Below, one piece after another: positions 41,001-64,000 of a stretch of 64,000 nt of DNA. The stretch is from contig WRMN01000005.1 of NCBI GenBank assembly GCA_009777095.1, positions 1 to 64,000 of the forward strand, in the 5' to 3' direction. Both the position numbers and the translations under genes were made by a program. Every line of letters starts with the position of its first letter. Positions within the stretch are counted from its first letter, which is position 1. Origin of the DNA: Bacteroidales bacterium. GTDB lineage: Bacteria; Bacteroidota; Bacteroidia; Bacteroidales; UBA932. The notes under the pieces are model-generated. The model was not told the origin of the DNA. It saw nothing but the letters and a program-made list of their open reading frames with translations, and ran no database searches.

Positions 41001-44000
41001 ATTCACCGAAACAGATAGTCGAGGGTGAAGCCGACAGGCTGACCTCAGGCAGCGGATTTACCGTTACCGTAACAGGACTTGCCGAGCCCGAACAGTTATT
41101 GCTGTTGAGCACTGTTACCGAATAGTCGGCAGTGGCTGTCAAGGCGCTTAGCGGATAGGTGTTGACCGTGGTAATTCCCAAGGCGGTTGCGCCCTCGTAC
41201 CATGTATAAGTCATAGCTGCCGTACTTCCATCTAACACCACGGCTGTTAAAGTTGTAGATTCACCGAAACAGACAGTCGAGGGTGAAGCCGACAGGCTAA
41301 CATCAGGCAGCGGATTTACCGTTACCGTAACAGGGCCTGCCGAGCCGAAACAGTCATTGCTGTTAAGCACTATGACCGAATAGTCGGCAGTGGCCGTCAA
41401 GGAGCTTAGTGAATAGGTATTGACCGTGGTAGTTCCCAAGGCGATTGCACCCTCATACCATGTATAGGTCATAGCTGTGGTCGTTCCAGCCGATACCGCA
41501 ACCGTTAAGGTTGTAGATTCACCATAACAGACAGTCGAGGGTGAAGCCGACAGGCTGACATCAGGCAGCGGGTTGACCGTTACTGTAACAGGACTTGAGG
41601 ATCCGAAACAGTCATTGCTGTTGAGCACTGTTACCGAATAGTCGGCAGTGGCTGTCAAGGCGCTTAGCGGATAAGTATTTACAGTAGTAGTTCCTAATTG
41701 GGTTGCACCCTCATACCATGTATAAGTCATAGCCGCTGTACTTCCATCTAAAATGTCGGCTATTAAGGTTGTACTTTCACCGAAGCAAATAGTAGAAGAT
41801 GAAGCCGACAGGCTGACATCAGGCAGCGGGTTGACCGTTACCGTAACAGGGCTTGCCGATCCGGAACAGTCATTGCTGTTGAGCACTGTTACCGAATAGT
41901 CGGCAGTGGCTGTCAAGGCGCTTAGCGGATAGGTGTTGACCGTAGTAGTTCCTAATTGGGTTGTACCCTCATACCAAGTATAAGTCATAGCTGCCGTACT
42001 TCCATCTAAAATGTCGGCTGTTAAGGTTGTGCTTTCACCGAAGCAAATAGTAGAAGATGAGGCTGACAGGCTGACATCAGGCAGCGGATTTACCGTTACC
42101 GTAACAGGACTTGCCGAGCCGACACAGTCATTGCTGTTGAGCACTGTTACCGAATAGTCGGCGGTGGCCGTCAAGGAAGTTAGCGGATAGGTGTTGACCG
42201 TAGTAGTTCCCAAGGCGATTGCGCCCTCATACCAGGTATAAGTCATAGCCGCCGTACTTCCATCTAACACCTCGGCTGTTAATGTTGTACTTTCACCGAA
42301 GCAAATAGTGGACGGTGATGCCGAAAGCCTGACATCGGGAAGCGGATTTACCGTTACCGTTACCGGAGCAGATGCGCCGGAGCAGCCGTTAGTATTGATT
42401 ACGCTCACGGAGTAATTAGCGGTAGCGCTCAAAGCGCTTAGATCGTAGTCGTTTAATGTAGTTGTGCCTATTTGAGCGCCTCCTGCATACCATGTATAAG
42501 TCATGGCTGGAGTGCTTCCGTTTGAGACTGTAGCCGTTAGGGTAGTAGATTCACCATCGCATATAGCGATTGGAGCGACTGACAGGCTAATCTCAGGCAG
42601 GTCATATACTACTACCGTTACCGTTACCGTTACCGGAGCAGAAGTCTCGGAGCAGCCATAGCTGTTGAGTACTTCCACAGAGTAGTCGGCAGTAAGGGTC
42701 AAAGCGCCTAAATCGTAAACATTGACTGTAGTGGTGCCTAATGGCGTAGCTCCTGAAAACCAGGTATAGGTCATGGCCGGAGTGCTTCCGCTTGGTACCG
42801 TAGCCGTTAGGGTAGCAGCCTCACCTCTGCAAACAGCGGACGAAGAAGCTAATAAATCGACTACCGGCCGCGGATTTACCGTTACGGTTACCGGATCGGA
42901 TATCTGCGCACAGCCGTTACTGTTAAGCACTTCCACAGAATAATTAGCGGTAGCGCTCAAAGAGCTTAGATTGTAGTCGTTTAATGTAGTTGTGCCTATT
43001 TGAGCGCTTCCTTCATACCAGGTATAGGTCATAGCAGTAGTAGTGCCGCCCGAGGCGGCAGCTGTTAAGGTAATGGCATCGCCGGAACAGGTGGTAGTTG
43101 ATGAAGCCGAGAGGTTAACCTCCGGCTGCGGATTTACCGCTATTGATACCGTTAGCGTTAGCGGAGCAGAAGAACCTGAACAGCCGTTACTGTTGATTAC
43201 TTCCACGGAATAATTTGCAGACGCCGTTACAGCGCTTAGTTGATAAAGATTGACTGTAGTGCTGCCTAATGTCGTAGTTCCCGCATACCAGGTATAGGTC
43301 ATGGCCGGAGTGCTTCCGCTCAAAACTGTAGCCGTTAGGGTAGCAGGCTGATTCAAGCATACAGCGGGTGACGAAGTGGCTAAATTGACCACAGGCAGCG
43401 GATTCACTGTTAATGTTTCTGAAGCCGATGTCTCGGAACAGCCATTGCTGTTGAGTACTTCCACGAAATAATCGGCTGTTGCAGTTAAGGCGCTTAGCGG
43501 ATAGTTGTTGACAGTGGTAGTTCCCAAGGCGGTTGCGCCCTCATACCAGGTATAGGTCATGGCTGTGGTAGTCCCGCCGGAAACATTGGCTGTTAGGGTA
43601 GCAGGGTCGCCGTAACACACATCGGGTGAAGAAGTGGTTAAACTGACCACAGGCAGTGGATTAACGGTTACCGTTATAGCTGTTGCCGAGCCCGAGCAGC
43701 CATGCTCGTTAAGTACTTCTACCGAATAATTGGCAGTGGCTGTCAAGGCGCTTAGCGGATAGGTATTTACAGTAGTAGTTCCTAATTGGATTGCGTCCTC
43801 GTACCAGGTATAAGTCATAGCCGTAGTACTTCCCTCCAAGACGGTGGCTGTTAAGGTGGTACTTTCGCTGAAACATATAGTGGACGGTGAAGCCGAAAGG
43901 CTGACATTAGGTAGCGGATTGACCGTTACCGTAACAGGCGTTGCAGAGCCCGAACAGTCATTGCTGTTGAGCACTGTTACGGAATAGTCGGCAGTGGCCG

Positions 44001-52400: not shown

Positions 52401-52502
52401 ATTACTGTTTATTATGAATACGATGATTTAGGCCGGTTAAAAACGATAAAAGATCAGCATAACAATATATTACAGCAAAATGAATACCACTATAAACAGT
52501 AA
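49491..52502 (+). CDS. Secreted RHS/YD-repeat protein, N-terminal shell component
   Basis: 1003 residues from the ATG at 49491; a TTG at 49467 opens the frame but sits before the signal peptide (MKNKKQKACCLFLVLCTIVV, ending WGQ). The first part (YGEIPVGHTTGVPQIEVPIY, ISISYHASGFRPREIPISVG, LGWVLNAGGMISR) is the typical N-terminus of Bacteroidota RHS proteins. YD-type repeats appear at the end (ITYHEYDVYGNPVYIS, VYYEYDDLGRLKTIKDQHNN). It has no RHS core or toxin domain and ends where the next RHS gene begins (19-bp gap), so the two probably form one secreted shell together. Lower G+C than the housekeeping genes. Confidence 0.88.
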   Translation: MKNKKQKACCLFLVLCTIVVWGQNNDIPELPRPIPPTPQAAQFIRYGEIPVGHTTGVPQIEVPIYTLSTGWIDIPISISYHASGFRPREIPISVGLGWVLNAGGMISRAIEVLPDFEALPDDMPVKSEADIWGMKTGTYQPVGVYWFNSIWCWENLILNPQQNHSQIDTRSDRYSYNFLGNAGIARYNVNTKKLIPVPYAPLIINRIAIDHYVITDAKGIKYEFTVPEKTSYQISDHTFFPATSTGWHLSKISYPGMENDPVVFSYKNAEGYGEVISSRTISILKEFTTGSNFTCEQCGGCPGDSQKCPKQWTTNSSLNSIFYSYDSQIITSIKWKNVSIEFNYSDDRQDKRKERLTTIVVKHGNNIVRQAVIDNNDYFGSKPKSLRLKLNSISLYGNNTATNGEVYSFNYNYSSGVPEYGKIGGEDLWGYFNNSNDHLIPIEIAQHLKNTYPSAWLNPSIYPDRKPNEAATKTCVLEEIVYPTKGKTRFEYEINRIPGFYVNIGDSLSDMVGGLRLKKRINYSETGTVLDIKEYRYEGYGTMPLSYDMFIGELQTKESYGMHEHFLARLCADVTYKIATSSSMLSLTGWSASPVFYNKVIEYNGENAIFSGKTEYFYTAHNFPDDIPSVCKQTFSPWYFSVYNDCDKGHIKELLDSIKIYNQSEAIVRKTANTYQFYNIPYIPTGVHVKQLRLFPNGFDPWMAQAIVSSSCNEQSYYQNYFLGNIVAVNTYAKQEIHLLQSTTDTEYVNGAPAISKTSSYVYDTKDDKPILFTPFLVIQENSDGETWVSKSVFPYDDAYKNTAPYNIMVGKNMLDFPVEVKTGKGIKIINKQPINQRFTTYKQVADMILPDAISIKYTGDTPVEQRITYHEYDVYGNPVYISKDNAERVVYLWAYRGQYPVAEIVNAAYDEVENILGATLISRLASEDEPASNDLAAVNNLRNSLPNALVTTYTYKPLIGKATVTDPNNITVYYEYDDLGRLKTIKDQHNNILQQNEYHYKQ

Positions 52503-52521
52503 CCGGCTTAATTGCATGCAG

Positions 52522-55500
52522 ATGAAAAGGATATATAAAATACTATTGCTTGGCATAATACATTGTTTAACATTTCAGTTAGCTCATGCACATACACCGG
52601 ACTTCAATGAATTTGTCAATTTTCTCGTCGAAGACAATTTTCATGCCGGAGAAATAGCAGCAAACGCCGATACGGTAACCTGTACTGACTATGTGTTTAT
52701 TAGTGAAATTAGCGGAGCATCGTGTGCCTTGCCCTATCGCCCTATTTATAAATGGCAGCGAAAGATATTGCCCGGAGGAGTGGAAGAAGACATACCAGCG
52801 AGTAAAAGTCCTTCCTATGATGTAGGTTATTTAACTACTTCCACTGCTTTCCGGCGCGAAGCAAAATGCGATGAAACTATAGCCTATACTCCCTGGGTGG
52901 AGATAATCGTAGTACAGCCCTTATTGGCCGGCACTATTTTTCCGGCGAGCTTGTCGGTAAATAACTGCGAAAATATTCCACTATTACAGGTACAAGGATA
53001 TAGCGGTGGCACATCCTATACTTTCAGTTGGAGTTTGAAAATTTTGAATAAGGAACTGCAAATTTCGGGCGCCAATGCTTCTACCTATCAACCGCCTCCT
53101 ATGTCCCACTCTGCAGAATATCGCTGTAAGGTAACCAGCGGTAGCCAATCAGCTTATACGCCATGGATGCCCATTACCGTAGTAGCACAACCCTTATTAT
53201 CGGCCGGCGCCATTTCTCCGGCAAGTTTGTCGGTAAATGCCAATGAAACTATCTCTCCTTTACAAGTAGAAGGAGCCGGCGGAGGGTTGCTATGTTCTTA
53301 TACTTATCAATGGTGGTCTAAGTCACCTGTTACAGGCGTAGAAACGATGATCCCCGACAATAATGTTTTTATCTATCAACCGCCCCCGCTGAGTCAATCT
53401 ATGAACTATCGCTGTGAAGTAACCAGTGATGATCAATCGGCTTTTACGCCATGGATGGAAGTTAGAGTAAATGGGTCGGAAAGTTTAAATAATTATTTAG
53501 CGGAAGCAAATTATATCGCAACTTGCAGACCTTTGGATGCCGTACAGCAACTTAGCACCCTTTCCATAGAAGAACAGCAGCGCGCTACCTCCATTACCTA
53601 TTTCGATGGCCTGGGCCGCCCCATACAAACTGTCCTGCCCCTGCACACGCCCGAAGGCAAGGATTTAATCAGCAGCATTACATACGACGCCTTTGGCCGC
53701 GAAAGCCTGCAATACCTGCCTGTGCCTGTGGGTGGTAACAACGGTGGTAATTATGCAGCTACAGCCACCCTCAATACCGCCCGACAAAGTTTTTACGGAG
53801 CAGAAGCCCCCCGCGCCTTTGCCGAAACCATTTACGAACCCTCGCCTCTGAACCGCGTTACAGGGCAGGTGATGCCCGGCGCAGCGTGGGAAGCGCAGCC
53901 TGTTGAGTTGGACTACCAAACCAATACTTCGCCCTTAACCACATGGCACGCCACAAGCAATGGCAACTACACGCCGCTAAGCTATGCTGCCAACCAACTG
54001 TATGTAGCTCAGGTTACCGACCCCGACGGACGCCTCGCCCGCGAATACAAAGACAAATTAGGACGAGTGGTGATGACCGAGGCCTACGATGATACCGACT
54101 GGCTGCAAACAAGATATGTATATGACGATTTCGGGCAGCGAAAAGCCGTTGTGCCGCCCGAAGCTACAAGTGTAGAAGAGGAGGAATACTGTTATTACTA
54201 CGAACACGACTACCGGCGACGGGTGGTTAAAAAGAAAATCCCGGGTGCCGACTGGATCTATGTGGTATATGACAAGCTCGACCGCCCCATACTTACGCAG
54301 GACGGCAATCAGCGTACCCGCGATGAATGGACTTTCCGTAAATATGATGTCTTCGGACGGGAAATCATTACCGGCTTGTATTCCACTATGCTTACTCATA
54401 GCGATTTGCAGACACAGTTTGCAACTGAGTTGATTACCGAAGAATACACCGGCAGCGGCCTGGCCGGTTATTCGTGGAATAATGAACCCATTGTAACCCA
54501 AGCCGAAGACTTGCTTAGTGTGAATTATTATGACAACTACGCCGGGCTTTCGGTTATTACAGCAAGCAACCCTACCCAAGCCACCCTGAGCTTTATGGCT
54601 AACGATTTGGTAACGGAAACTGCCAATAGCAACAAAGGCCGATTAACCGCCACCCTCACGGCTGCCTTACCCTCCCCTACCTTAACTACTCTAACTACCT
54701 TAACCACTCTAACTACTACTCCTGTTTTAACCACTGTTTACTATTACGACACCTACGGTCGTGTGATACAAACCGTAGCCACCAACCATGTAGAAGGTAT
54801 AGACCGCGTAAGTACTCAATACGATTTTCGCGGCAATGTGCTGCAAAGCCTGCAGGAGAGCGATTGGATTAACGATAGCGATGACCCCGGCAGCTTGACC
54901 CTGCGGCAGACTATAGACTACGATTTGGTGAAGCGCCCCACAGCCATGCACCTGCAAATTAACGACGAGCCGCCGCAAACCATTGCAGAAATGGAATATG
55001 ATGAGTTAGGGCGGGTGAAAATAAAGCAATGGCACGATGGCGTTGAAAGTACGACCTATACCTACAATATACAGAACTGGCTGAAAACCATCACCGGCGC
55101 TTTGTACAGTCAGGAACTTTTCTACGAGCAGCCTCCGGCCGGCAGCACTGTAACTCCGCAATTTGGCGGCAACATCAGCGGCATGAGTTGGAGTACGCCG
55201 CAACACACCAACAACTGTTACGCATTTACCTACGATGGTGTCTCAAGGCTCATTAACTCTCAATTCTCAATTCTCAACTCTCAATTCTCAAACAGTTACA
55301 CCGAACATTTGACCTACAACAAAAACGGCAGCATTTTGACCCTGCAACGTTACGGCGCTAATGGTTTGATAGATGACATGAGCTACAGCTACAACGGCAA
55401 TCAGGTAATGCAGATTGTTGATATAGCTACTGCTGACGGTTTTCCTGTAGGGACTACCAATTATACTCACGATACTAACGGCAACACCATTACCGAAGGT

Positions 55501-56745
55501 AGCACGCAAACAAGCTACAACCTGCTCAATTTACCTTCACTCGTAACTTTAGTGGGCGGGCGAAAAATAGAAAATACTTATGCTGCCGATGGCCGTAAGT
55601 TAGCTACAGTAGCTAAAGAGGGCAATGAACTTAAAGAGGGAACTAAAACTTATAATGGTAACTTAGTCTTTGATCTAAACCGTGATTTGGAGTATATACT
55701 ATTCCCTGAGGGCAGGATTTTACATAATGCAGGAAGTTTTACTTATGAGTATCATCTCAAAGACCACTTAGGCTCTACAAGAGTTGCCTTTACGCCCATA
55801 AACAGCATCGCTAATGTCGTACAGGTCAATGCTTTTTATCCATTCGGAGCACCTATTGCCGCTTTGAGTTGGAGCAGCCAGACGCAGAACAAAAACCGCT
55901 ATCTCAGGGAAGGAAAGGAATACGTGAGCGACCATGGGTGGAATAAATATGACTTCGGTTGCCGTGCGTTTGATTCTTGGAATCTACACCCTTTACAACT
56001 TGACCCGATGGCGGAAAAGTTTTATCATTTGTCTCCGTACACGTTGTGGGGAAACAATCCCATGCGCAATATAGACCCCACGGGGATGATTTGGAGAGAT
56101 ATAAATGGAAATGAAATAGAAGACCATAGTAAGATTCAGGCATACATTTTCTATGACCCTCGCAAGAAAGGTGGATTTTCTGAACAATCCATGCAAATGG
56201 CTAAAGATTTGGAGCAAGAATATGGTGAAGGCACTGTTGCTATGAGCAATGTTACAACAGTGGAAGAATTTGTTCAAGATTGGGGCGACATGGCGGGAGT
56301 TAATATCAGTGAAGTAAATCTAAACTATCATGGTAACAATCAAACTATCATGTTAAATTCAAGTGGTAAACAGTATATTACTGCTACGGGTGATGGAAAA
56401 ACTAATCGGTCAGGAACAGATGCTACGAATGTACAAGATTTACCTGCACCCGCAGGCACCATTGATAATGCTCAGCTAAATATAAATACATGTGAATCTA
56501 ACAATCCTAACCAATATCCGTTAAAAGGTTCGGGTCAAACTCTTATGAATGCGTTTAGAACGACTACCGACTTTAATGTTGTAAGAGGTACTTCCTACGG
56601 GGTCAGTTATGACAGAACTACAAAGCAGCCTTTTCCCGGACGTTCGTGGAGTCGTGGCACATGGGATTATATGTATAAACCTGCCCCTATAGTAACAAAA
56701 TATCCCGGCATAGACCTAACCCTACCTCTGCCTGTATTAAAATGA
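52522..56745 (+). CDS. Secreted RHS polymorphic toxin with caspase-like C-terminal domain
   Basis: 1407 residues from ATG 52522 (MKRIYKILLLGIIHC, signal peptide to ~residue 24). Two Ig/PKD-like segments (~130-320) are followed by a DUF6443-like entry (ATSITYFDGLGRPIQTVLPL), many YD repeats, and the RHS core around 1075-1188 (YHLKDHLGSTRVAF to NPMRNIDPTGM). The variable tail (~1190-1407) is unrelated to the core. It has a strand-helix start (AYIFYDPRKKGG) and two conserved-looking strands, EVNLNYHGNN with H1270 and AQLNINTCESNN with C1324. The His-Gly and Cys at the ends of hydrophobic strands, 54 residues apart, match clan CD (caspase-like) peptidases. A 12-residue insertion (near 55255) comes from an interspersed repeat. 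The next gene is the likely immunity protein. Confidence 0.88.
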   Translation: MKRIYKILLLGIIHCLTFQLAHAHTPDFNEFVNFLVEDNFHAGEIAANADTVTCTDYVFISEISGASCALPYRPIYKWQRKILPGGVEEDIPASKSPSYDVGYLTTSTAFRREAKCDETIAYTPWVEIIVVQPLLAGTIFPASLSVNNCENIPLLQVQGYSGGTSYTFSWSLKILNKELQISGANASTYQPPPMSHSAEYRCKVTSGSQSAYTPWMPITVVAQPLLSAGAISPASLSVNANETISPLQVEGAGGGLLCSYTYQWWSKSPVTGVETMIPDNNVFIYQPPPLSQSMNYRCEVTSDDQSAFTPWMEVRVNGSESLNNYLAEANYIATCRPLDAVQQLSTLSIEEQQRATSITYFDGLGRPIQTVLPLHTPEGKDLISSITYDAFGRESLQYLPVPVGGNNGGNYAATATLNTARQSFYGAEAPRAFAETIYEPSPLNRVTGQVMPGAAWEAQPVELDYQTNTSPLTTWHATSNGNYTPLSYAANQLYVAQVTDPDGRLAREYKDKLGRVVMTEAYDDTDWLQTRYVYDDFGQRKAVVPPEATSVEEEEYCYYYEHDYRRRVVKKKIPGADWIYVVYDKLDRPILTQDGNQRTRDEWTFRKYDVFGREIITGLYSTMLTHSDLQTQFATELITEEYTGSGLAGYSWNNEPIVTQAEDLLSVNYYDNYAGLSVITASNPTQATLSFMANDLVTETANSNKGRLTATLTAALPSPTLTTLTTLTTLTTTPVLTTVYYYDTYGRVIQTVATNHVEGIDRVSTQYDFRGNVLQSLQESDWINDSDDPGSLTLRQTIDYDLVKRPTAMHLQINDEPPQTIAEMEYDELGRVKIKQWHDGVESTTYTYNIQNWLKTITGALYSQELFYEQPPAGSTVTPQFGGNISGMSWSTPQHTNNCYAFTYDGVSRLINSQFSILNSQFSNSYTEHLTYNKNGSILTLQRYGANGLIDDMSYSYNGNQVMQIVDIATADGFPVGTTNYTHDTNGNTITEGSTQTSYNLLNLPSLVTLVGGRKIENTYAADGRKLATVAKEGNELKEGTKTYNGNLVFDLNRDLEYILFPEGRILHNAGSFTYEYHLKDHLGSTRVAFTPINSIANVVQVNAFYPFGAPIAALSWSSQTQNKNRYLREGKEYVSDHGWNKYDFGCRAFDSWNLHPLQLDPMAEKFYHLSPYTLWGNNPMRNIDPTGMIWRDINGNEIEDHSKIQAYIFYDPRKKGGFSEQSMQMAKDLEQEYGEGTVAMSNVTTVEEFVQDWGDMAGVNISEVNLNYHGNNQTIMLNSSGKQYITATGDGKTNRSGTDATNVQDLPAPAGTIDNAQLNINTCESNNPNQYPLKGSGQTLMNAFRTTTDFNVVRGTSYGVSYDRTTKQPFPGRSWSRGTWDYMYKPAPIVTKYPGIDLTLPLPVLK
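55255..55291 (+). repeat. In-frame interspersed caattctcaa repeat within the RHS gene
   Basis: It encodes [12 protein letters not shown]. The first 32 bases (55255-55286) are identical to 21888-21919 at the end of atpA. The length keeps the RHS frame open. Confidence 0.9.
55843..55952 (+). repeat. 110-bp RHS core segment duplicated at 62467-62576
   Basis: 106 of 110 bases are identical to 62467-62576, in the same orientation and 6624 bp apart. It encodes GAPIAALSWSSQTQNKNRYL and onwards. Downstream of it the two copies diverge to roughly three-quarters identity up to DPxG, and are unrelated after that. Confidence 0.95.
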
Positions 56746-56805
56746 CACCCAAGTACAAGATTATTCAAATAAAACAACAATAAGAGCGTTTAGAAAGATT
56801 AATTT

Positions 56806-57258
56806 ATGAAACGAAAATTTTATACAGAAATATTATTTATAGCTATATCCTTATTCTGTAGTTGTAGAGGAAGATTGCCAGAAACCGTTATTTTTTTTGA
56901 AAATTATGATTTGAGTACTGGAGAATATAAACTTCTTGTGTTTGGAGGAGAGGGGCAATGGATTGATGATTATCGAGACTTTTATATTGACGATACTGAA
57001 GTCCTGACAAAGATGCAAAAACGATGGGTTTTCAAGTATCAATCGGATATAATGGCATGTGGTTATGGATATTCAATTTTGTTAGTTGATAGAAACAAGG
57101 TGCTTAAAGAAGTGGAAGTTAATATTGAATGTGATTGCGAATATATGTCAGGTTGGATATACTTTCCCAGAAGTTATTTATCAGATTATAAAAATCATTT
57201 TAAAAAAATGACAGAAATGGAGAAGAAGGAGTTTTTGGAAAAGTATAGGAAGAATTAG
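56806..57258 (+). CDS. Small lipoprotein, candidate immunity protein for the upstream RHS toxin
   Basis: 150 residues. The N-terminal signal sequence ends in a cysteine pair (LFCSCRG) suitable as a lipobox, so it is probably a lipoprotein facing the periplasm or the cell surface. The body (about 30-150) is acidic and aromatic-rich, with CDCEYMSGWIYFPRSYLSDY near the end, and no family is recognised. It starts 60 bp after the RHS toxin stop, the standard place for an immunity gene. A periplasmic location would suit a toxin that acts on, or enters through, the envelope. Low G+C like the toxin tail. Confidence 0.7.
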   Translation: MKRKFYTEILFIAISLFCSCRGRLPETVIFFENYDLSTGEYKLLVFGGEGQWIDDYRDFYIDDTEVLTKMQKRWVFKYQSDIMACGYGYSILLVDRNKVLKEVEVNIECDCEYMSGWIYFPRSYLSDYKNHFKKMTEMEKKEFLEKYRKN

Positions 57259-57492
57259 ATAAAAAACAAAGAAAAATACCGCTACCCTTCCCGTCGTTCA
57301 ACCAACACATCGGGTTGCCTCTTTTGGCAAAACAAACTCAATCCCGCACAGGGGGCTTTGTTATTAGACGGTTTTCAGGGGGAAAGGTTTAACGCGGAGT
57401 TCCCTGCTTCGCGGTCAGGCCGGTGGTTGTTTGTTCCTTGAGCAGGAAAAGCGGAGTTCGTCATCGCTCGTCGGCACAAAACCATGCCATGC

Positions 57493-57549
57493 CGTTCAGC
57501 CCTTTTTTCTTTTTTGCTTAATTTATAAGGCATAAAAAAAGGCTGAACG
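57493..57549. repeat. Hairpin with poly-T/poly-A stem
   Basis: CGTTCAGCCCTTTTTT (57493-57508) pairs with AAAAAAAGGCTGAACG (57534-57549) with a single extra base. The GC-then-T layout on both strands would work as a bidirectional intrinsic terminator. Confidence 0.7.
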
Positions 57550-57643
57550 CCCTTCGGGTGCTTCGCTGTCGCTTCGCAGCCTGTCATGGTTTTTGCAGCT
57601 CCTCGTTCTTCCTCACGGCAGGCTCCCGCGTCCGTGTGTTCGT

Positions 57644-57670
57644 GCTTCCTGCTTCGTACCTCGCAGTCGC
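57644..57670 (-). repeat. REP-like interspersed repeat copy
   Basis: The plus strand reads gcttcctgcttcgtacctcg then cagtcgc. Same family as 33601-33627 and, in part, the four cores at 7129-7526. Confidence 0.75.
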
Positions 57671-57741
57671 ACCAACACACCTCCGGCGCCTGCCCATAAT
57701 TTTGCTCGCCTGCTGGTCGCCGCCGGCTGCGGGCTTGTCAT

Positions 57742-57803
57742 GGTTTTTGCGGGCATGGCCGCGTCTTTAGATTTAACGGCAGCCATGCCTCACGGCAAAA
57801 ACC
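57742..57803. repeat. Hairpin GGTTTTTGC / GCAAAAACC
   Basis: GGTTTTTGC (57742-57750) and GGCATGGC (57752-57759) pair with GCCATGCC (57782-57789) and GCAAAAACC (57795-57803). This gives a 17-bp stem with a small bulge. Confidence 0.7.
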
Positions 57804-57843
57804 ACGCCAAGCCCTTGTGTGAGGCACATAGGTCGCCCCCGCT

Positions 57844-57870
57844 GCTTCCTGCTTCGTGCCTCGCAGTCGC
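57844..57870 (-). repeat. REP-like interspersed repeat copy
   Basis: The plus strand reads gcttcctgcttcgtgcctcg then cagtcgc; one base differs from the copy 200 bp to the left. Confidence 0.75.
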
Positions 57871-58224
57871 AGCTCTCAGGCTCCCACCGGCGGCTCCACT
57901 CGCAGGCGGCTCGCGCCTTCCGTTCGCTTACGCTCACTTCGGCTGCTTGGCCGTCGGCCATTACGCTACGCTCCACAGCCTCCGGCCAGCCGTTGGATAA
58001 GAACCGACCGAAGCAGGTAAGAGCAGGCTGCAGATTAAAAATGCAGATTGTTTCCTTTGTAATCCTCAGGGTTAGATGTGTGCCAGGCTGAAGTCCCTGC
58101 AGTTGTTTGCTCGTTTTTTACGTAAATTTGTCCGCTGCGCTTCCAAACATACATAAAAAACGAACGATGTTTTTCTGTGCAGTTCAAAGGAGGAAAGCAG
58201 CTGTATTAACTGGACTTTTAGCGT

Positions 58225-58584
58225 CTATACAAAAGTTATCTTTCCGTCGAGCAGGTCTTTCATTCTCTTTTTAGTAAGCATGGAATTAATGATTTTGATT
58301 AAGGCCTCTTTCTCGTCATCGTCCAGCTGGTTCATCATCATTAACTGCTCGTTCTTCTCGCGGCTTTGAATGTTTACAGCACCGTTGTCGTCATCATTCA
58401 GCAGCCGGTCGGCAGAGACGGCAAAGACTCTCATCAGTCGCTGCACAATGTCGATAGAGGGCAGCAGATGGCCGTTCTCCATCTTGGACAGGTGGGTAAC
58501 ATGAATATGTAATCTGTTGGCCAGTTCCTGCTGGTTCATGTCGGCTGCCTTACGCAGGGCTCTAATCTTATCTTTAAACGCCAT
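58225..58584 (-). CDS. XRE-family transcriptional regulator of the recombinase module
   Basis: 119 residues from the ATG at 58584 (MAFKDKIRALRKAADMNQQE). The helix-turn-helix is at ~15-55 (QQELANRLHIHVTHLSKMEN), followed by a short acidic C-terminal segment (DDEKEALIKIINSMLTKKRM). Such Cro/C1-type proteins commonly repress the divergent genes of mobile elements. It is divergent from the ATPase gene with a 182-bp shared control region that contains inverted repeats and a promoter, so autoregulation and repression of the ATPase/recombinase genes is the natural inference. Confidence 0.88.
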   Translation of the reverse strand: MAFKDKIRALRKAADMNQQELANRLHIHVTHLSKMENGHLLPSIDIVQRLMRVFAVSADRLLNDDDNGAVNIQSREKNEQLMMMNQLDDDEKEALIKIINSMLTKKRMKDLLDGKITFV

Positions 58585-58666
58585 ATTGGAAAGTGTTATT
58601 GTCGCAGGCAAAGTTACCATAATTTAAGATATTTAACTATTTTTTTTTGTTTTTAATGAAAATATA

Positions 58667-58727
58667 TTGCAAATATATGAAATTTATTTTTACCTTTGCA
58701 TTCAAAATAACAATTAATTTTATTGTT
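58667..58727 (+). promoter_or_regulatory. Promoter and candidate operators of the recombinase module
   Basis: TTGC (58667-58670) and TACCTTTG (58691-58698), 20 bases apart, form a good promoter for the ATPase gene. A near-palindrome atatattgcaaatatat overlaps the -33 box. AACAAT (58709-58714) and ATTGTT (58722-58727) form a perfect inverted repeat just downstream. These are candidate sites for the XRE regulator. Confidence 0.55.
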
Positions 58728-58766
58728 AAATTCTCAAGGCCACTGAATTTTGATAAAACAAGCGAT

Positions 58767-60293
58767 ATGAACCCACTGCAAATACTTAATCCTCATTTTC
58801 TTATTTACAGCGATGAGCTGTTTACGATAGACGTTCTTGGCGGGATAGACCTGCTGCAGATGGAAAGAATGATCTGTACCCTGCGGATAACACACAAAAA
58901 CTATCCGCCGATGCGCACTACCCTTGATTTGTACAGCGACAGCCAAACCGACAGACTCATTCGCAGGCTCTGCGACAAATACGGCTTGACGCTCGTAGAA
59001 AGCGCTAAATCCGTACATGCCTGTATCTGCCAGCTGGAAAGCTACAGACTGGAACGGCTGCGCTACCCGCAGGGCGAGCAGGAAGATACTTTTGAGATGA
59101 GCGAAGAAGAACGGCAGGCAGCAAAAAAGTATTTATCACATAAAAACCTGATTGCCAACCTGAAAAATGATTTGGAAAAAATCGGGATTTTGGGCGAGGA
59201 AGACAACGCTTTGATTTTGTTTTTGGCCATGGCAAGCCACAAAAGCGACAGCCCTTTTTCCGTTCTCTGCCTTTCCGAAAGCGGCATCGGTAAAAGCTAT
59301 CTGCTGCAAAAATTATCGGAATGCATGCCGAAAAACACCTTTTCCTTTCACACCCAAATAAGCGAAAACGCCCTTTATTACTTCGACAGCAGGCAGATTG
59401 ACGGCAAAATCCTGTTTATTGAAGACTTGGAATGGACAAACGCAATGCTGATGCCGCTGGCTACGCTGCAAACACAGGGCAGACTGATAAAAACCCGTGC
59501 CACCAAAGACAAAGACGGAATGCTGCACAGTACCACCTTTGAAGTGGCGGCAAAACTCTGTTTAATTGCCTGCGCCTGTTCCGAAAAGAACTGTGAACAG
59601 TTGAGCCTGCCCTTTTTGTGCCTGCACCTGAACCACAGCAGCGCACAGGATACTAACGTTATGGAATATCAAAAGAAAATCAGGGCGGGTTTGATTAACC
59701 AAACAGAAATAAGCCAAATACAGCGGCGTTTGCAGTGTGTAATTGCAAGCCTGAAAAACACAGGCATTATCAACCCTTTTGCAACACTTATTCACCTGCC
59801 CGATGACGTTCCGCACCCAAGAAAAACGCTTTTACTGCTACTTAATTTCATTGATGCTATTACCTTTTTCCGCCAGTACCAAAGAGAAGAAACCGCCGAC
59901 CCGAACACCGGCGAGGTGATGATAAAAACCCGACCCGAAGACATAGAACTGGCTTTTACCTTACTGAAAAGTTCCCTGCTGCGCCGGGTCGATGAGTTGA
60001 GTATAGCGGTGCAGGGTTTTTACGCCTGGCTGCAACAGTATTTAAACAGGGCGCAAACAAACCTGTTTACCGCCTTTGACCTGCGCAGGGAAAAACGCAT
60101 ACACCCGCGAACCCTGAACCGCTATCTGCAGGAGCTTTGCCTGTTCCACTGCATACAAATCACCGGCGGGAACAGGTACCGGGAGGGCTACCGGTACAGG
60201 ATTACCGGCCTGAACGAAGGCAATAACCTGAGCGAAAGCATGGAAAGCGCTGTAAAGCAAACGCTTGATAAAATAAAAAGCGAAATTCAGTAG
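58767..60293 (+). CDS. P-loop ATPase of the recombinase module
   Basis: 508 residues from the ATG at 58767 (MNPLQILNPHFLIYSDEL). The frame opens at 58647, but that adds a basic hydrophobic stretch lying over the promoter. Walker A SESGIGKS is at 170-177 and Walker B ILFIED at 215-220. A segment follows resembling the sensor region of AAA+ helicases (ATKDKDGMLHSTTFEVAAK). The C-terminal ~100 residues look like a winged-helix (FDLRREKRIHPRTLNRYLQE). The order recalls MCM/DnaC-like AAA+ proteins of mobile elements, but I cannot name a family. It lies 98 bp upstream of the two recombinase genes. Confidence 0.8.
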   Translation: MNPLQILNPHFLIYSDELFTIDVLGGIDLLQMERMICTLRITHKNYPPMRTTLDLYSDSQTDRLIRRLCDKYGLTLVESAKSVHACICQLESYRLERLRYPQGEQEDTFEMSEEERQAAKKYLSHKNLIANLKNDLEKIGILGEEDNALILFLAMASHKSDSPFSVLCLSESGIGKSYLLQKLSECMPKNTFSFHTQISENALYYFDSRQIDGKILFIEDLEWTNAMLMPLATLQTQGRLIKTRATKDKDGMLHSTTFEVAAKLCLIACACSEKNCEQLSLPFLCLHLNHSSAQDTNVMEYQKKIRAGLINQTEISQIQRRLQCVIASLKNTGIINPFATLIHLPDDVPHPRKTLLLLLNFIDAITFFRQYQREETADPNTGEVMIKTRPEDIELAFTLLKSSLLRRVDELSIAVQGFYAWLQQYLNRAQTNLFTAFDLRREKRIHPRTLNRYLQELCLFHCIQITGGNRYREGYRYRITGLNEGNNLSESMESAVKQTLDKIKSEIQ

Positions 60294-60359
60294 GACAGTA
60301 GGACAAACCCCACTGTCCGACTCTCAAAGCCCCGCCGGCAAAGGGATAAGCAGTAGGAC
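60288..60359. repeat. Clustered cagtaggac repeats with an inverted GGACAGT/ACTGTCC pair
   Basis: cagtaggac occurs at 60288, 60296 and 60351. GGACAGT (60293-60299) faces ACTGTCC (60312-60318). They fill the gap between the ATPase stop and the first recombinase gene and are candidate recombinase or regulator binding sites. Confidence 0.65.
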
Positions 60360-60391
60360 GACACAAAACAGAAAAATCAGGAATTAAAAAT

Positions 60392-61330
60392 ATGGATAAG
60401 GCAGGATTTATGCACTATTTAGAAAGTAAAGAGCTTACTGTAAACTATATAGCTCGATGTACAAGGCTGGCAGAGCGCTTTTTTAAGCAAGCTGAAAAGG
60501 AAGACATACAGGTAATCAAAGCCGATATTTTAAAGTACCTGGAAGCTCTGAACAGAAAAGGGCTGCAAAACATATCACGCTATCGTTCGCTCTCTGCGCT
60601 AAATCATTACTTCAGTTTCCTTTACGGCGCGGGATTAATCGACAAAAACCCCTGTCTGCTGCTTAAAATACGCGGAATAAAAAGAAAAATACTGTACAAA
60701 ACTTACAGCCCCGAAGAACTTGAGGCGCTTTTTGATAATTATTACCAGTACTTTGTACGCAGCCATGATGAGAGTTGCCTGCCCGAAAATCATCGAAAAT
60801 CATCGGCTTTGAAAAAGTACAGAAACGCCGTGATAGTAAGTATTTTAATCTTTCAGGGGGCAATATCGGGCGAAATAGAAGGAATAGAAGTGAACGATAT
60901 GGATTTAATGAAAGCGACTGTTAAAATACGGGGCGGACGGCGCAGCAACGGGAGAACGCTGCCGCTCAAAGCCGCCCAAATCGGTTTAATGATGCACTAT
61001 TTGCAGAACATACGTCCGCAGCTGATGGAATACCGAACAGGGGAGACCGACAGGCTGGTTTTTCCTTTGTTCGGCAACAAAAATAACGCCGATAAGGATA
61101 ATATTTTAAATGTAACAGGAATGATTGCCAAACAGTTAAAAACCATTGACAAGCAATTTTTAAATTTTAAACAGCTGCGGGCTTCGGTCATTAGCTTTTG
61201 GATAAAGACGCAGGGATTACGCAAAGCCCAGTACATGGCCGGGCATCGTTACGTCAGCAGTACAGAGAATTACTTATCCAATAATTTAGAGGACTTAACA
61301 GAGGAGATTAACAAATTACACCCGTTTTAA
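60392..61330 (+). CDS. Tyrosine recombinase homologue with incomplete catalytic site
   Basis: 312 residues. The N-terminal SAM-like core-binding domain (1-100) is followed by a catalytic-like domain. R263 (KQLRAS), H285 (AGHRY) and Y294 (STENY) are present. The first catalytic Arg, expected in GLR-SE, is replaced (GAISGE, I158), and the His of HxxR is K260. So two of the RKHRHY residues are missing and it probably cannot cut DNA alone. Its stop codon overlaps the ATG of the next recombinase (TAATG at 61330), so they are made together. A heteromer with the downstream enzyme is the likely form. Confidence 0.87.
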   Translation: MDKAGFMHYLESKELTVNYIARCTRLAERFFKQAEKEDIQVIKADILKYLEALNRKGLQNISRYRSLSALNHYFSFLYGAGLIDKNPCLLLKIRGIKRKILYKTYSPEELEALFDNYYQYFVRSHDESCLPENHRKSSALKKYRNAVIVSILIFQGAISGEIEGIEVNDMDLMKATVKIRGGRRSNGRTLPLKAAQIGLMMHYLQNIRPQLMEYRTGETDRLVFPLFGNKNNADKDNILNVTGMIAKQLKTIDKQFLNFKQLRASVISFWIKTQGLRKAQYMAGHRYVSSTENYLSNNLEDLTEEINKLHPF

Positions 61331-62238
61331 TGAATAAAGGATACAGAACAGTTGCAGCCGAATATGCTGTATGGCTTGATACGCTTGGTTACTCCGAGGG
61401 CTTGCGCTATGGCTGTAACTCAGCCCTGAAGCTGTTTTTGGAATGGCTGGAAGACAACCGGCTGCAAAGCATAAATCAACTGAGGGATAAACATATAAAC
61501 GATTATCGTCAGTATTTGGAAACGCGCCGGCACCTGCGCATCAAAGGCCGTTTGCTGAGCGTTGCTCACTTAAACCGAAATTATTTTGCCATTGATAAAC
61601 TGTTGGAGTTCCTGCACCAGTACGGTGTGGAAAAGGTCCCGGTGCCTGCCAACCGCCGTATAAAAATGGATAAGCAGGAGCGGATAGGAAAAATAGAAGT
61701 TCTTACACAGCAGGAAATAAAAACGCTGTACAGGGGCATACCGAACACCTATCAAAAAAAACTGTCCTTTGAAGAACGGCAAGCCAAACAGTACGAGTTA
61801 AAACTGATTTTTGCCCTCTTTTACGGCTGCGGCTTACGGCGTTCCGAAGGCTACAGGCTGCAGCTGCAGGACGTTGATTTTGATAAAAAAACCGTGTTTG
61901 TAAGGCAGGGAAAGAACTACAAAGACCGCACTGTTCCGATGAGTGCGGGCGTTTACGAAGCATTGCAGGATTACGTTTACAACTTCCGGCACCAGCTGAA
62001 ACTAAAACACAATCGTTTATTTATCAGCGATATACACATGCTGCGGTTGCGCCTTAAATACCTGCAGAACAGTTGCAAAGACACGAATATACAGGCTAAA
62101 GTCATCACCCTGCACACGCTTCGCCATTCTATTGCGACCCATCTGCTGCAAAACGGCATGAGCATCGAAAACATCGCCCTGTTTTTAGGGCATAACAGCC
62201 TTGACAGCACACAGATTTACACGCATTTAGTCAATTAG
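61330..62238 (+). CDS. Tyrosine recombinase (XerC/D-like), catalytically complete
   Basis: 302 residues. SAM-like N-terminal domain (1-105). The catalytic residues are all visible: R170 (GCGLRRSE), K195 (RQGKNYKDR), H262 and R265 (HTLRHSIATHLL), H288 (LGHNS) and nucleophile Y297 (TQIYTHL). It ends four residues after the motif, compact as in transposon-type recombinases. It is coupled to the upstream degenerate homologue. An intrinsic terminator follows 20 bp after the stop. Probable job: integration/excision of the module or rearrangement of the RHS cassettes; neither is shown by the sequence. Confidence 0.93.
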   Translation: MNKGYRTVAAEYAVWLDTLGYSEGLRYGCNSALKLFLEWLEDNRLQSINQLRDKHINDYRQYLETRRHLRIKGRLLSVAHLNRNYFAIDKLLEFLHQYGVEKVPVPANRRIKMDKQERIGKIEVLTQQEIKTLYRGIPNTYQKKLSFEERQAKQYELKLIFALFYGCGLRRSEGYRLQLQDVDFDKKTVFVRQGKNYKDRTVPMSAGVYEALQDYVYNFRHQLKLKHNRLFISDIHMLRLRLKYLQNSCKDTNIQAKVITLHTLRHSIATHLLQNGMSIENIALFLGHNSLDSTQIYTHLVN

Positions 62239-62258
62239 AGGCAGAGATTGAGAATTTT

Positions 62259-62288
62259 AAAAGGAGGACTTAAAAATCCTCTTTTTTT
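62259..62288 (+). terminator. Intrinsic terminator after the recombinase genes
   Basis: AAAAGGAGGA (62259-62268) pairs with TCCTCTTTTT (62277-62286) over 10 bp with one G-U, loop CTTAAAAA, running into a T-tract. It closes the recombinase transcript before the orphan RHS cassette. Confidence 0.8.
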
Positions 62289-62313
62289 GTGCTTGTATCT
62301 GAATATTTTTTAG

Positions 62314-62321
62314 TAATTTTG
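62314..62321 (+). promoter_or_regulatory. -7 box for the orphan RHS cassette
   Basis: TAATTTTG fits TAnnTTTG, 22 bases before the ATG at 62344. The closest TTTG upstream (62286) is spaced 24 rather than 19 bases. Confidence 0.45.
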
Positions 62322-62343
62322 CAGTGGTAAATCTCTGTAAAAA

Positions 62344-63333
62344 ATGGGCTGCGTTAAACTGCACATATTGGACGAACAGTATAAAAGACCTGAGTTCAAG
62401 GTAAGTTACATTAAAAAAGAACTGACCTCGAATTTTTGTGATAAAAACGCACGTAGTTCCTCACTCTTCGGAGCGCCTATTGCCGCTTTGAGTTGGAGCA
62501 ACCAGACGCAGAATAAAAACCGCTATCTCAGGGAAGGAAAGGAATATGTGAGCGACCATGGGTGGAATAAATATGATTACCACGCCAGAGCATTTTGTTC
62601 GTGGAGTATACACCCTCTACAACTTGACCCGATGGCGGAAATGTTTTATCATTTATCGCCGTATGCGTTGTGGGCAAACAATCCAGTCAATGCAATTGAC
62701 CCCGATGGGCGAGTTGTTTGGGTTCTTCCTCTAATTCCTGCTATAAAAAGTTTACTTATAGCTACAGGTATTACAACAACCGCTTATGTGGCACATAAAG
62801 CCGCGAGAGATGCTAATATTGGACAGGCTATTAGTGGCGCTCTCAGAGATGCAGGTAATGCCATAGGGGAAGTGTTTTCCTCTCCAAACTCTGTTGCTAC
62901 GTCAAGAGTAGAAGAGGGTCGTGTAGCCGCAGATAATACGCAGGTACAGACACGGATACCTCTCTCAGATGTTGTTGTAAAAGAAAATAGAGCAGCTACT
63001 CGAGAGCAAAAGAACAATCAACAAAGAGATGATAGAATAAAGCAAGGGAAAGCAGATGAGGCGCGGGGAAATGTACAAAACGCGGCGGATAACAGTGGTT
63101 ATGGGCAACGCCCACCTGGTGGCGATCCAGAACCTAAAAATAAAGTTGTGACGACAATTGGAAAGATAACACTTGGAGGAGGGGTATCAGCTCTAGGAAT
63201 TTATCAAATTTTTGGAAATAGTGATATACAGCAGGTACAAGAACAAATGCAACAACAACAGCAACAACAGCAACAAGAACAACAGCAACAACAAAGCCTA
63301 TGGGAACGTTTGAAATCCTTATTTACAGATTAA
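62344..63333 (+). CDS. Orphan RHS C-terminal toxin cassette
   Basis: 329 residues, lacking the signal peptide and the whole RHS shell. Residues 1-40 (MGCVKLHILDEQYKRPEFKV) are a leader of a type I recall from other Bacteroidota RHS orphans. Residues ~41-123 repeat the RHS core end (GAPIAALSWSNQTQNKNRYL to NPVNAIDPDGR). The tail (124-329) is unrelated to that of the full-length RHS gene: a hydrophobic segment (VLPLIPAIKSLLIATGITTT), a charged linker (DDRIKQGKADEARGN), a second apolar segment and a poly-Q tract (~298-318) ending LWERLKSLFTD. It is followed by small membrane-protein genes, the probable immunity genes. Confidence 0.8.
   Translation: MGCVKLHILDEQYKRPEFKVSYIKKELTSNFCDKNARSSSLFGAPIAALSWSNQTQNKNRYLREGKEYVSDHGWNKYDYHARAFCSWSIHPLQLDPMAEMFYHLSPYALWANNPVNAIDPDGRVVWVLPLIPAIKSLLIATGITTTAYVAHKAARDANIGQAISGALRDAGNAIGEVFSSPNSVATSRVEEGRVAADNTQVQTRIPLSDVVVKENRAATREQKNNQQRDDRIKQGKADEARGNVQNAADNSGYGQRPPGGDPEPKNKVVTTIGKITLGGGVSALGIYQIFGNSDIQQVQEQMQQQQQQQQQEQQQQQSLWERLKSLFTD
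62467..62576 (+). repeat. Second copy of the 110-bp RHS core repeat
   Basis: Partner of 55843-55952 (4 mismatches in 110). Same orientation, so recombination between the copies would delete the 6.6 kb in between and fuse the RHS shell to this toxin tail. Confidence 0.95.
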
Positions 63334-63334
63334 T

Positions 63335-63535
63335 ATGAAATATCTTAGATTTCTAAATAAATTAAGCGATGTGTTGATTATTCCTACGGCAATTGGGGGA
63401 GCGTGTATTGTAATATTTAAAGACACATTAAACACTTTAAAATACGCGCAGGCCTTGCGATTCTTAGTCGTTATGATGGGCATAATTATTGTTGTAGGAG
63501 CTTTAGTGAAAAATAAAAATGAAAAAAATAATTAA
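63335..63535 (+). CDS. Small two-helix membrane protein, candidate immunity protein
   Basis: 66 residues with two hydrophobic helices (about 10-28 and 42-59) and charged ends. The ATG begins one base after the toxin stop (gattaatatg), so it is coupled to the orphan toxin gene. A second copy of this gene starts at 63836, after the same junction. A membrane-embedded immunity protein suggests that the cognate toxin acts on the inner membrane, for example as a pore former, which is an inference only. Confidence 0.72.
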   Translation: MKYLRFLNKLSDVLIIPTAIGGACIVIFKDTLNTLKYAQALRFLVVMMGIIIVVGALVKNKNEKNN

Positions 63536-63728
63536 TTTTATATTGTATAATACTTATAGTATTTTACTGTGTATCTTTTCGATATATTTGCTAATTTATG
63601 GTTTTTGTGGATTTGATAAATTAGCTCCGATTTACACCTATTTATTAGTTTTATTATTAGGCATGATAATCGGGTTTGGCCTTCACAGAAAGGTTAGTCA
63701 GTTACTATATCGTATGAATAACAAGTGA
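63519..63728 (+). CDS. Small two-helix membrane protein
   Basis: 69 residues with two predicted membrane helices (about 12-30 and 38-55) and a basic C-terminus (HRKVSQLLYRMNNK). It overlaps the end of the preceding gene by 17 bp in another frame, which indicates translational coupling. No family recognised. It lies within the 501-bp unit of the local duplication; whether the second copy also has it is outside the window. Confidence 0.65.
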   Translation: MKKIINFILYNTYSILLCIFSIYLLIYGFCGFDKLAPIYTYLLVLLLGMIIGFGLHRKVSQLLYRMNNK

Positions 63729-63834
63729 GTATTTGCAAAAACAACAGCAACAACAACAAGAGTTACAGCAGCAACAAGAACAACAGCAAAAACAAAGCCT
63801 ATGAGAACGTTTGAAATCCTTATTTACAGATTAA
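63727..63834 (+). pseudogene. Broken duplicate of the orphan toxin's poly-Q tail
   Basis: In frame it reads EYLQKQQQQQQELQQ, then QSL-stop-ERLKSLFTD-stop. The last 49 bases of the unit (63794-63842) match 63293-63341 with one mismatch, which turns the Trp codon TGG into a TGA stop. Only the last ~35 codons of the toxin were copied. It is the left part of a 501-bp tandem duplication. Confidence 0.85.
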
Positions 63835-63835
63835 T

Positions 63836-64000
63836 ATGAAATTTTTTAAAATCTTAAAAAAAATAAGTAATGTGCTATTTATACCTACATTAATTGGAGC
63901 AGTTTGCTTATTGATATTTAAAGGTGAGTTAAATACTCTTAAATATGCACAAACAATACGATACTTATTCGTTGTCGTATGCATCATTACTTTAATCGGA
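63836..64000 (+). CDS. Second copy of the small membrane immunity-like protein (partial, runs off the window)
   Basis: The 55 codons visible (MKFFKILKKISNVLFIPTLI, then FKGELNTLKYAQTIRYL) are clearly related to the protein at 63335-63535 (shared IP-I-G, FK, LNTLKYAQ, R-L-V) but diverged. It is preceded by the same junction sequence. The frame is still open at 64000. Probably a diverged orphan immunity gene retained after loss of its own toxin tail. Confidence 0.8.
   Translation, partial: MKFFKILKKISNVLFIPTLIGAVCLLIFKGELNTLKYAQTIRYLFVVVCIITLIG

Follow-up and report, generated by a model that had tools for sequence, protein, structure and literature searches.

Within a 64,000-nucleotide stretch of a Bacteroidales contig (WRMN01000005.1; hereafter the window), we found a four-gene recombination module that in all likelihood (probability of about 0.83) is the engine of an integrative element dedicated to polymorphic toxins. 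Integration of this element would replace the tip of a resident RHS toxin gene and displace the old one, and the element probably replicates itself. The earlier note on this DNA had placed four genes at 58225-62238 between a full RHS unit and an orphan, and these are present as described (Table 1): the full RHS gene and a small gene (52480-56745, 56806-57258) lie on one side and the RHS orphan (62344-63333) on the other. The genes thus stand, but the extent given to the module was too narrow, since the repeating unit also comprises the toxin tip and the immunity gene (55843-62466). This cargo, the recombination inside the RHS coding sequence and the making of the orphan by displacement had all been missed.

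Table 1. Features of the integrated unit and its surroundings, in window positions.
Feature	Positions	Strand	Remarks
Full-length RHS polymorphic toxin gene, integration target	52480-56745	+	DUF6443 E=2e-42
Integrated unit 1: new RHS tip, immunity gene, module, right end	55843-62466	+	6,624 bp; RHS core direct repeat at 55843 and 62467
Left recombination site (attL) TTCGGAGC, within YPFG motif of RHS core	55843-55850	.	aligned with 62467, contig position 70834 and the RHS gene of contig C6
Putative immunity gene of RHS toxin (cargo)	56806-57258	+	directly after toxin gene
Interspersed intergenic repeat; left edge of stretch identical between units	57300-57548	.
XRE/Cro-CI type repressor gene	58225-58620	-	HTH_3 E=1.8e-13; divergent from operon
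AAA+ ATPase gene	58767-60293	+	MCM-like predicted fold, C-terminal winged helix
Recombinase 1, degenerate tyrosine recombinase	60392-61330	+	Phage_integrase E=3.4e-8; catalytic positions
Recombinase 2, intact tyrosine recombinase	61330-62238	+	Phage_integrase E=1.7e-33; catalytic positions
Terminator-like hairpin, 3' of recombinase operon	62259-62286	+
Element right end: start codon and leader peptide (MGCVKLHILDEQYK...), in frame into displaced tip	62344-62466	+
Recombination site between units 1 and 2 (attR of unit 1)	62467-62474	.
Orphan RHS tip carried by unit 2	62467-63333	+	ORF start 62344 within unit 1 end

Gene content and boundaries of the unit

Pfam recognised the XRE protein and both recombinases and returned no significant family for the ATPase, for which the ATG at 58767, matching the homologues, was preferred over a possible ORF start at 58647. 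The two recombinase genes overlap (61330). Recombinase 2 keeps the entire R-K-H-R-H-Y set, whereas recombinase 1 lacks the first Arg but still has the second Arg, His, and Tyr; this catalytic pattern is conserved across Bacteroidota and bears out the earlier suggestion of an active and a degenerate enzyme. Because of its position, the hairpin behind the operon was the sole terminator call used; promoter and terminator counts were no higher than in shuffles. Scanned against Rfam, the module gave no hits, and PADLOC returned generic HTH matches only.

A PDB sequence search with the helicase alignment as query gave chance-level P-loop matches only, so that a fold search was needed. The AlphaFold (AF2) model of the ATPase (mean pLDDT 83.5) displays an MCM-type AAA+ fold with the C-terminal winged helix that had been suspected, and Foldseek ranked MCM replicative helicase subunits best (E=1.6e-9, probability 1.00, TM about 0.4), followed by RuvB and ORC/Cdc6 proteins. 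In its model the ATPase resembles MCM helicases, yet it fails the sequence criterion of that family, as the Pfam MCM match reached 14.4 bits, below the cut-off of 23.3. With a TM of this size, the predicted fold makes helicase a tentative assignment of function. The alignment revealed that the window ATPase lacks the CHC2-toprim primase half seen in many relatives; in those retrieved by the plasmid searches described below, the ATPase mostly makes up the C-terminal half of a CHC2-toprim primase. No ATPase relatives were found in viral contigs and phage records.

A search of the own genome revealed a second, 100% identical ATPase 8.4 kb downstream on the same contig (C5), and comparison of this contig with itself uncovered a 5.2-kb block of 99.8% identity (57304-62525 versus 65670-70892). 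At its right edge, this block reaches into a fragment of the RHS core (FGAPIAALSW...). The full RHS gene has this fragment too, at 55843, as does a module-free RHS gene on contig C6. In the site alignment, TTCGGAGC is preceded by RHS core in the full genes and by the element end in the orphans, and it is followed by an RHS tip throughout. Because the sequences diverge upstream of TTCGGAGC and are all RHS tip downstream of it, the natural unit is 55843-62466, followed by 62467-70833 (contig positions). Unit 2 (8,367 bp) lies in tandem, extends past the window and carries a different tip, and a third tip remains behind it as the last orphan. The last 60 bases of the two unit ends are identical but for one base. 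In the window, the start codon comes from the element end itself, and a leader of 41 codons reads from it in frame into the displaced tip; orphans start at one fixed base behind this conserved non-RHS end. With a full toxin gene followed by tips with core fragment, the locus has the make-up of a polymorphic toxin orphan array. The genome contains four Rhs-core matches, and the unoccupied-site comparison for the window element was limited to the paralogous unoccupied RHS gene on contig C6. The gene directly behind the toxin gene gave no Pfam match; its immunity role is presumed from its position.

The intergenic repeat at 57300-57548 is non-coding and has copies at C1:241410, C2:99555, C6:356, C13:5156, C5:72332 and 73007, often near RHS ends. 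We rejected it as a cassette boundary or attC-like site, as it also occurs between unrelated genes elsewhere in the genome. On the 3' side of the unit 2 orphan (window 63250-64000, contig C5 to 65269), several tandem paralogous genes for small membrane proteins follow one another with a period of roughly 500 bp and 78-93% identity, possibly representing an immunity-gene array. Near the RHS island, the minus strand (38056-46857) encodes a 2,933-aa protein with repeated Ig/PKD-like units and a C-terminal secretion-type domain.

Linkage and distribution of the module

Genome sampling yielded few carriers of the ATPase: 1 of 300 in the family besides the window's genome, 14 of 396 in the phylum and 13 of 393 in the order, often with tandem pairs 6-8.5 kb apart. 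The only other carrier found in the same family (L006) has an ATPase of 75% identity and an active recombinase split over three reading frames, which suggests either decay of this copy or errors in sequencing.

A scan of named genomes resulted in 76 loci, mostly from Bacteroidota and with conserved gene order. These loci were chosen by the ATPase alone, so that linkage was not a selection criterion, and the denominators given here are loci with enough flanking sequence. At least two recombinases follow the ATPase in all 61 testable loci (two were counted in most), and a divergent XRE gene lies ahead of it in 61 of 66. One recombinase is intact and one degenerate in 53 of 55 pairs. An RHS gene is located at most 6 kb upstream in 34 of 40 loci, another large ORF in five more, and an RHS orphan downstream in 33 of 44. 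The RHS background, with about 277 RHS-core matches in 118 Bacteroidota genomes of an assumed 3.5 Mb or so each, corresponds to a chance of about 0.4% per 6-kb stretch. The earlier note had raised the questions of whether the ATPase and both recombinases form a linked triplet, whether they adjoin RHS orphans beyond chance and whether they are the remnant of a larger known element; the triplet recurs in dozens of genera, the 34 of 40 loci with an RHS gene upstream far exceed the background, and no larger known element appeared.

The distance matrices of the helicase and the recombinases correlate (0.74, 0.66, and 0.85; 0 of 2000 permutations as high), while that of the XRE protein (0.12) shows no correlation with them. 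This comparison shows helicase and recombinases to be co-inherited. In 26 other loci, the unit lies between direct repeats of the toxin gene, with a median unit of 7.75 kb. The target motifs near the RHS core end are mostly Y(Y)PFG, and also DYGAR, YGFNG, HLGN, and NYVY. Nearest recombinase relatives had the same target motif in 20 of 24 cases (0 of 5000 permutations for the active enzyme), a relation confounded by host phylogeny. Leader starts of the MGCxKL type were present in some related loci; a universal MGC leader was rejected, as several elements are without it.

Related elements, occupied and empty sites

Plasmid protein searches retrieved relatives in Aureispira, Aureibacter, P. aeruginosa, Lonsdalea, Providencia, Janthinobacterium, and Leptospira. 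The P. aeruginosa relative sits behind a two-partner-secretion toxin gene, and besides RHS genes, CDI-type and further toxin genes have related modules behind them. Proteobacterial relatives have a single recombinase instead of a pair. Aureispira carries two identical 7,652-bp units and Aureibacter two units of 8,169 bp; three array junctions in each pinned the crossover to TACGAG and to TATGGATT (8 bp shared), respectively. The identical neighbouring units in both could alternatively have arisen by unequal homologous recombination.

Circular plasmids composed almost solely of element-type genes exist, and these could be true plasmids, excised circles or artefacts of assembly. The Lonsdalea plasmid NZ_CP072857.1 (11,289 bp) consists nearly entirely of two tips and of immunity, SymE, XRE, primase, and XerC genes, with a second, unannotated primase-like stretch. 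The Shigella 'plasmid' NZ_CP055112.1 (8,758 bp) has roughly the length of one period of the chromosomal array in E. coli, as an excised circle or an assembly artefact would, and was set aside as proof of a circle. In E. coli units (L018, L019, L081, L082), a SymE-family gene lies between the immunity gene and the XRE gene, and some proteobacterial units end in a RelE/ParE-type pair; these genes may stabilise the element.

Element ends, which the earlier note had hoped to obtain from occupied and empty sites, could be defined in an E. coli relative. This element is distant from that of the window, has one recombinase, bears a primase and is located inside an rhs gene. Its near-identical XerC marker gene was found in 53 of 5,426 E. 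coli genomes, which have it at as many as 6 places each. The four E. coli loci examined have at least one unit behind the rhs gene between ansP and yddH, with one divergent case elsewhere. With the last orphan of STW0522-31 as query for empty sites, we found its tip and immunity gene fused to a full, module-free rhs gene at the same place in Ec-U10 and JNE151685, with 99.4-99.7% identity on both flanks of a 16.7 kb insert. In Ec-U10, the left flank (9.07 kb, 99.6%) and the right flank (9.84 kb, 99.7%) meet at GACCCGATAGGGCT, and the crossover lies within GACCCGATAGGGCTG, where 15 bp are shared. At the same locus, R12 has one unit and SCU-111 two; the last orphan of SCU-111 gave no empty sites, the element being present in all six genomes with that tip. 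The STW0522-31 insert is a composite of the array, an ISEc1 copy and a further core fragment rather than a single clean event, and one empty/occupied pair would be compatible with gain as well as with precise loss. As far as sequence comparison goes, the Ec-U10/STW0522-31 arrangement is the one predicted by tip displacement through integration, and empty and occupied sites with a short shared core, as expected of an integrative element, are present in the E. coli relatives. Comparison of loci thus documents unit boundaries, tip replacement and displacement, a crossover of about 6-15 bp and tandem units.

Mechanism, alternatives and known systems

We propose that a circular form would carry one recombination site just ahead of a toxin tip, followed by the immunity gene, the repressor, the helicase (often with a primase) and the recombinases. 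The active/degenerate pair, or the single enzyme in Proteobacteria, would recombine the circle site with a short matching site that resident rhs (or cdiA-like) genes have in their conserved 3' part. Upon integration, the tip and immunity gene of the element would become fused to the resident core, and the old tip would be left as an orphan behind the right end. A circle of the order 'element end - site - new tip' and a gene of the order 'core - site - old tip' would yield 'core - site - new tip ... element end - site - old tip'; the arrangement predicted by circle integration is the arrangement found. Repeated integrations would create tandem arrays, and excision would restore the previous tip. 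From knowledge of their families, the XRE protein presumably silences the operon and the MCM-like helicase presumably replicates the circle. We infer that these recombinases are the catalysts and that the circle forms and replicates, that the XRE protein represses and that the element is transferred; our guess is that the right-end leader keeps orphans expressed.

Tips might instead be moved by RecA-dependent homologous recombination between core fragments, with the module as a passenger between them, a reading that we consider highly improbable. It accords with a published model with episomal circles (Jackson 2009), with kilobases of identity between tandem units and with the SCU-111/R12 comparison, in which the crossover may lie anywhere along roughly 1 kb of similar element end. 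However, orphans share their start base behind a conserved non-RHS element end, recombinases accompany the ATPase in 61/61 testable loci, and identity at the crossover is just 8-15 bp in Aureibacter and E. coli. Stretches of 8 and 15 bp, as shared there, are too short for normal RecA exchange, and such a short shared sequence speaks against exchange by RecA alone.

A general integrative plasmid or phage satellite could also use rhs as a convenient site and exchange tips as a by-product. Plasmid-borne relatives exist, and the set of repressor, primase-helicase, and integrase resembles the replication and integration cores of phage satellites and integrative plasmids. This origin is nevertheless unlikely, as the element carries precisely the tip and its immunity gene, in frame, the target lies just upstream of the polymorphic toxin end in RHS and CDI-type genes, and the units contain no packaging or transfer genes. 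We give a comparably small chance to a phase-variation device, in which the recombinases reshuffle resident cassettes in one cell with no mobility between cells: several tips per locus have matching sites and excision of unit 1 would join the next tip to the core, but the patchy distribution (1/300, 14/396, and 13/393 in family, phylum, and order), the occurrence in 53/5426 E. coli with empty sites and the replication genes point to mobility. Phase variation and mobility are compatible roles, and the evidence supports both the minimal transposon and the cassette-shuffling device that the earlier note had offered as alternatives.

The dedicated integrative element that we favour shares a divergent repressor, primase-helicase, and integrase with phage satellites (PICIs) and integrative plasmids, here as XRE, an MCM-like helicase with or without primase, and recombinases. 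It differs from them in that cargo and target are the toxin gene itself and the helicase is MCM-like by predicted fold; no packaging or capsid-interference genes were found between the two sites in the units examined. As in integrons, the newest cassette adjoins the expressed position and older ones are pushed back, whereas integrons have one integrase for many cassettes and each complete unit here has its own recombinases, with fusion inside the coding sequence, and no attC sites were noticed. Adjacent tyrosine recombinase genes are also typical of RIT elements and Tn554-type transposons. The earlier view that this is no RIT element holds, as the window has two recombinases, one of them degenerate, instead of three, together with a helicase, an XRE gene and a fixed target in toxin genes. 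In comparison with Tn554-type transposons (TnpA, TnpB, and TnpC), no third gene follows the recombinases, and a helicase and an XRE gene are found instead. Likewise in agreement with the first reading, neither relaxase nor type IV secretion genes were present in the window or in annotated related units. IMEX have no integrase of their own and use host XerCD at dif, whereas this element has an intact recombinase and lineage-matched toxin-gene sites. The rAID loci of Bacteroidales (PMC12247911) similarly link a tyrosine recombinase to interbacterial-toxin immunity genes, but consist of a recombinase and orphan immunity gene arrays without toxin tips or helicase.

The Rhs/CDI orphan-array papers (PMC2935791, PMC3150448, PMC4927057) describe the same arrays of displaced tips and immunity genes behind full-length genes, whereas element, ends and gene set are undefined in the text covered here. 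Circular intermediates were postulated with no integrase known for tip exchange (Jackson 2009, PMC2935791), homologous recombination was discussed (Poole 2011, PMC3150448), and integrase/transposase genes were noted among cdi orphans and site-specific recombination suggested (Ruhe 2016, PMC4927057). XerC/D was found beside some polyimmunity loci (Zhang 2012), and Kirchberger 2017 saw no sign that an integrase takes part in effector-immunity insertion. A full-text literature search, with a coverage outside subscription journals, gave no description of this element; integrative elements are a kind already known, and the arrangement of cargo and target was not found described.

How Rhs/CDI toxins change their tips has been an open question since the arrays were described, and the route proposed so far relied on homologous recombination by the host and a hypothetical circle. 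A dedicated recombinase-helicase element would offer an enzyme that can be tested, a defined site and a marker, and it would explain the tandem arrays and the fixed orphan start base; with the E. coli members, the tip-exchange model can be tested directly in a laboratory strain. The odds are about even that a widespread class of self-replicating elements exists in Bacteroidota, Proteobacteria, and Leptospira, in which site and cargo form the toxin gene, the element earns its keep by re-arming the host with a new toxin-immunity pair and the right end supplies a conserved MGCxKL start and leader that keeps displaced tips translatable. If so, MGCxKL orphan starts in Bacteroidota would be the footprint of past integrations. 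Overall, the element model would tie weapon turnover to mobile-element biology.
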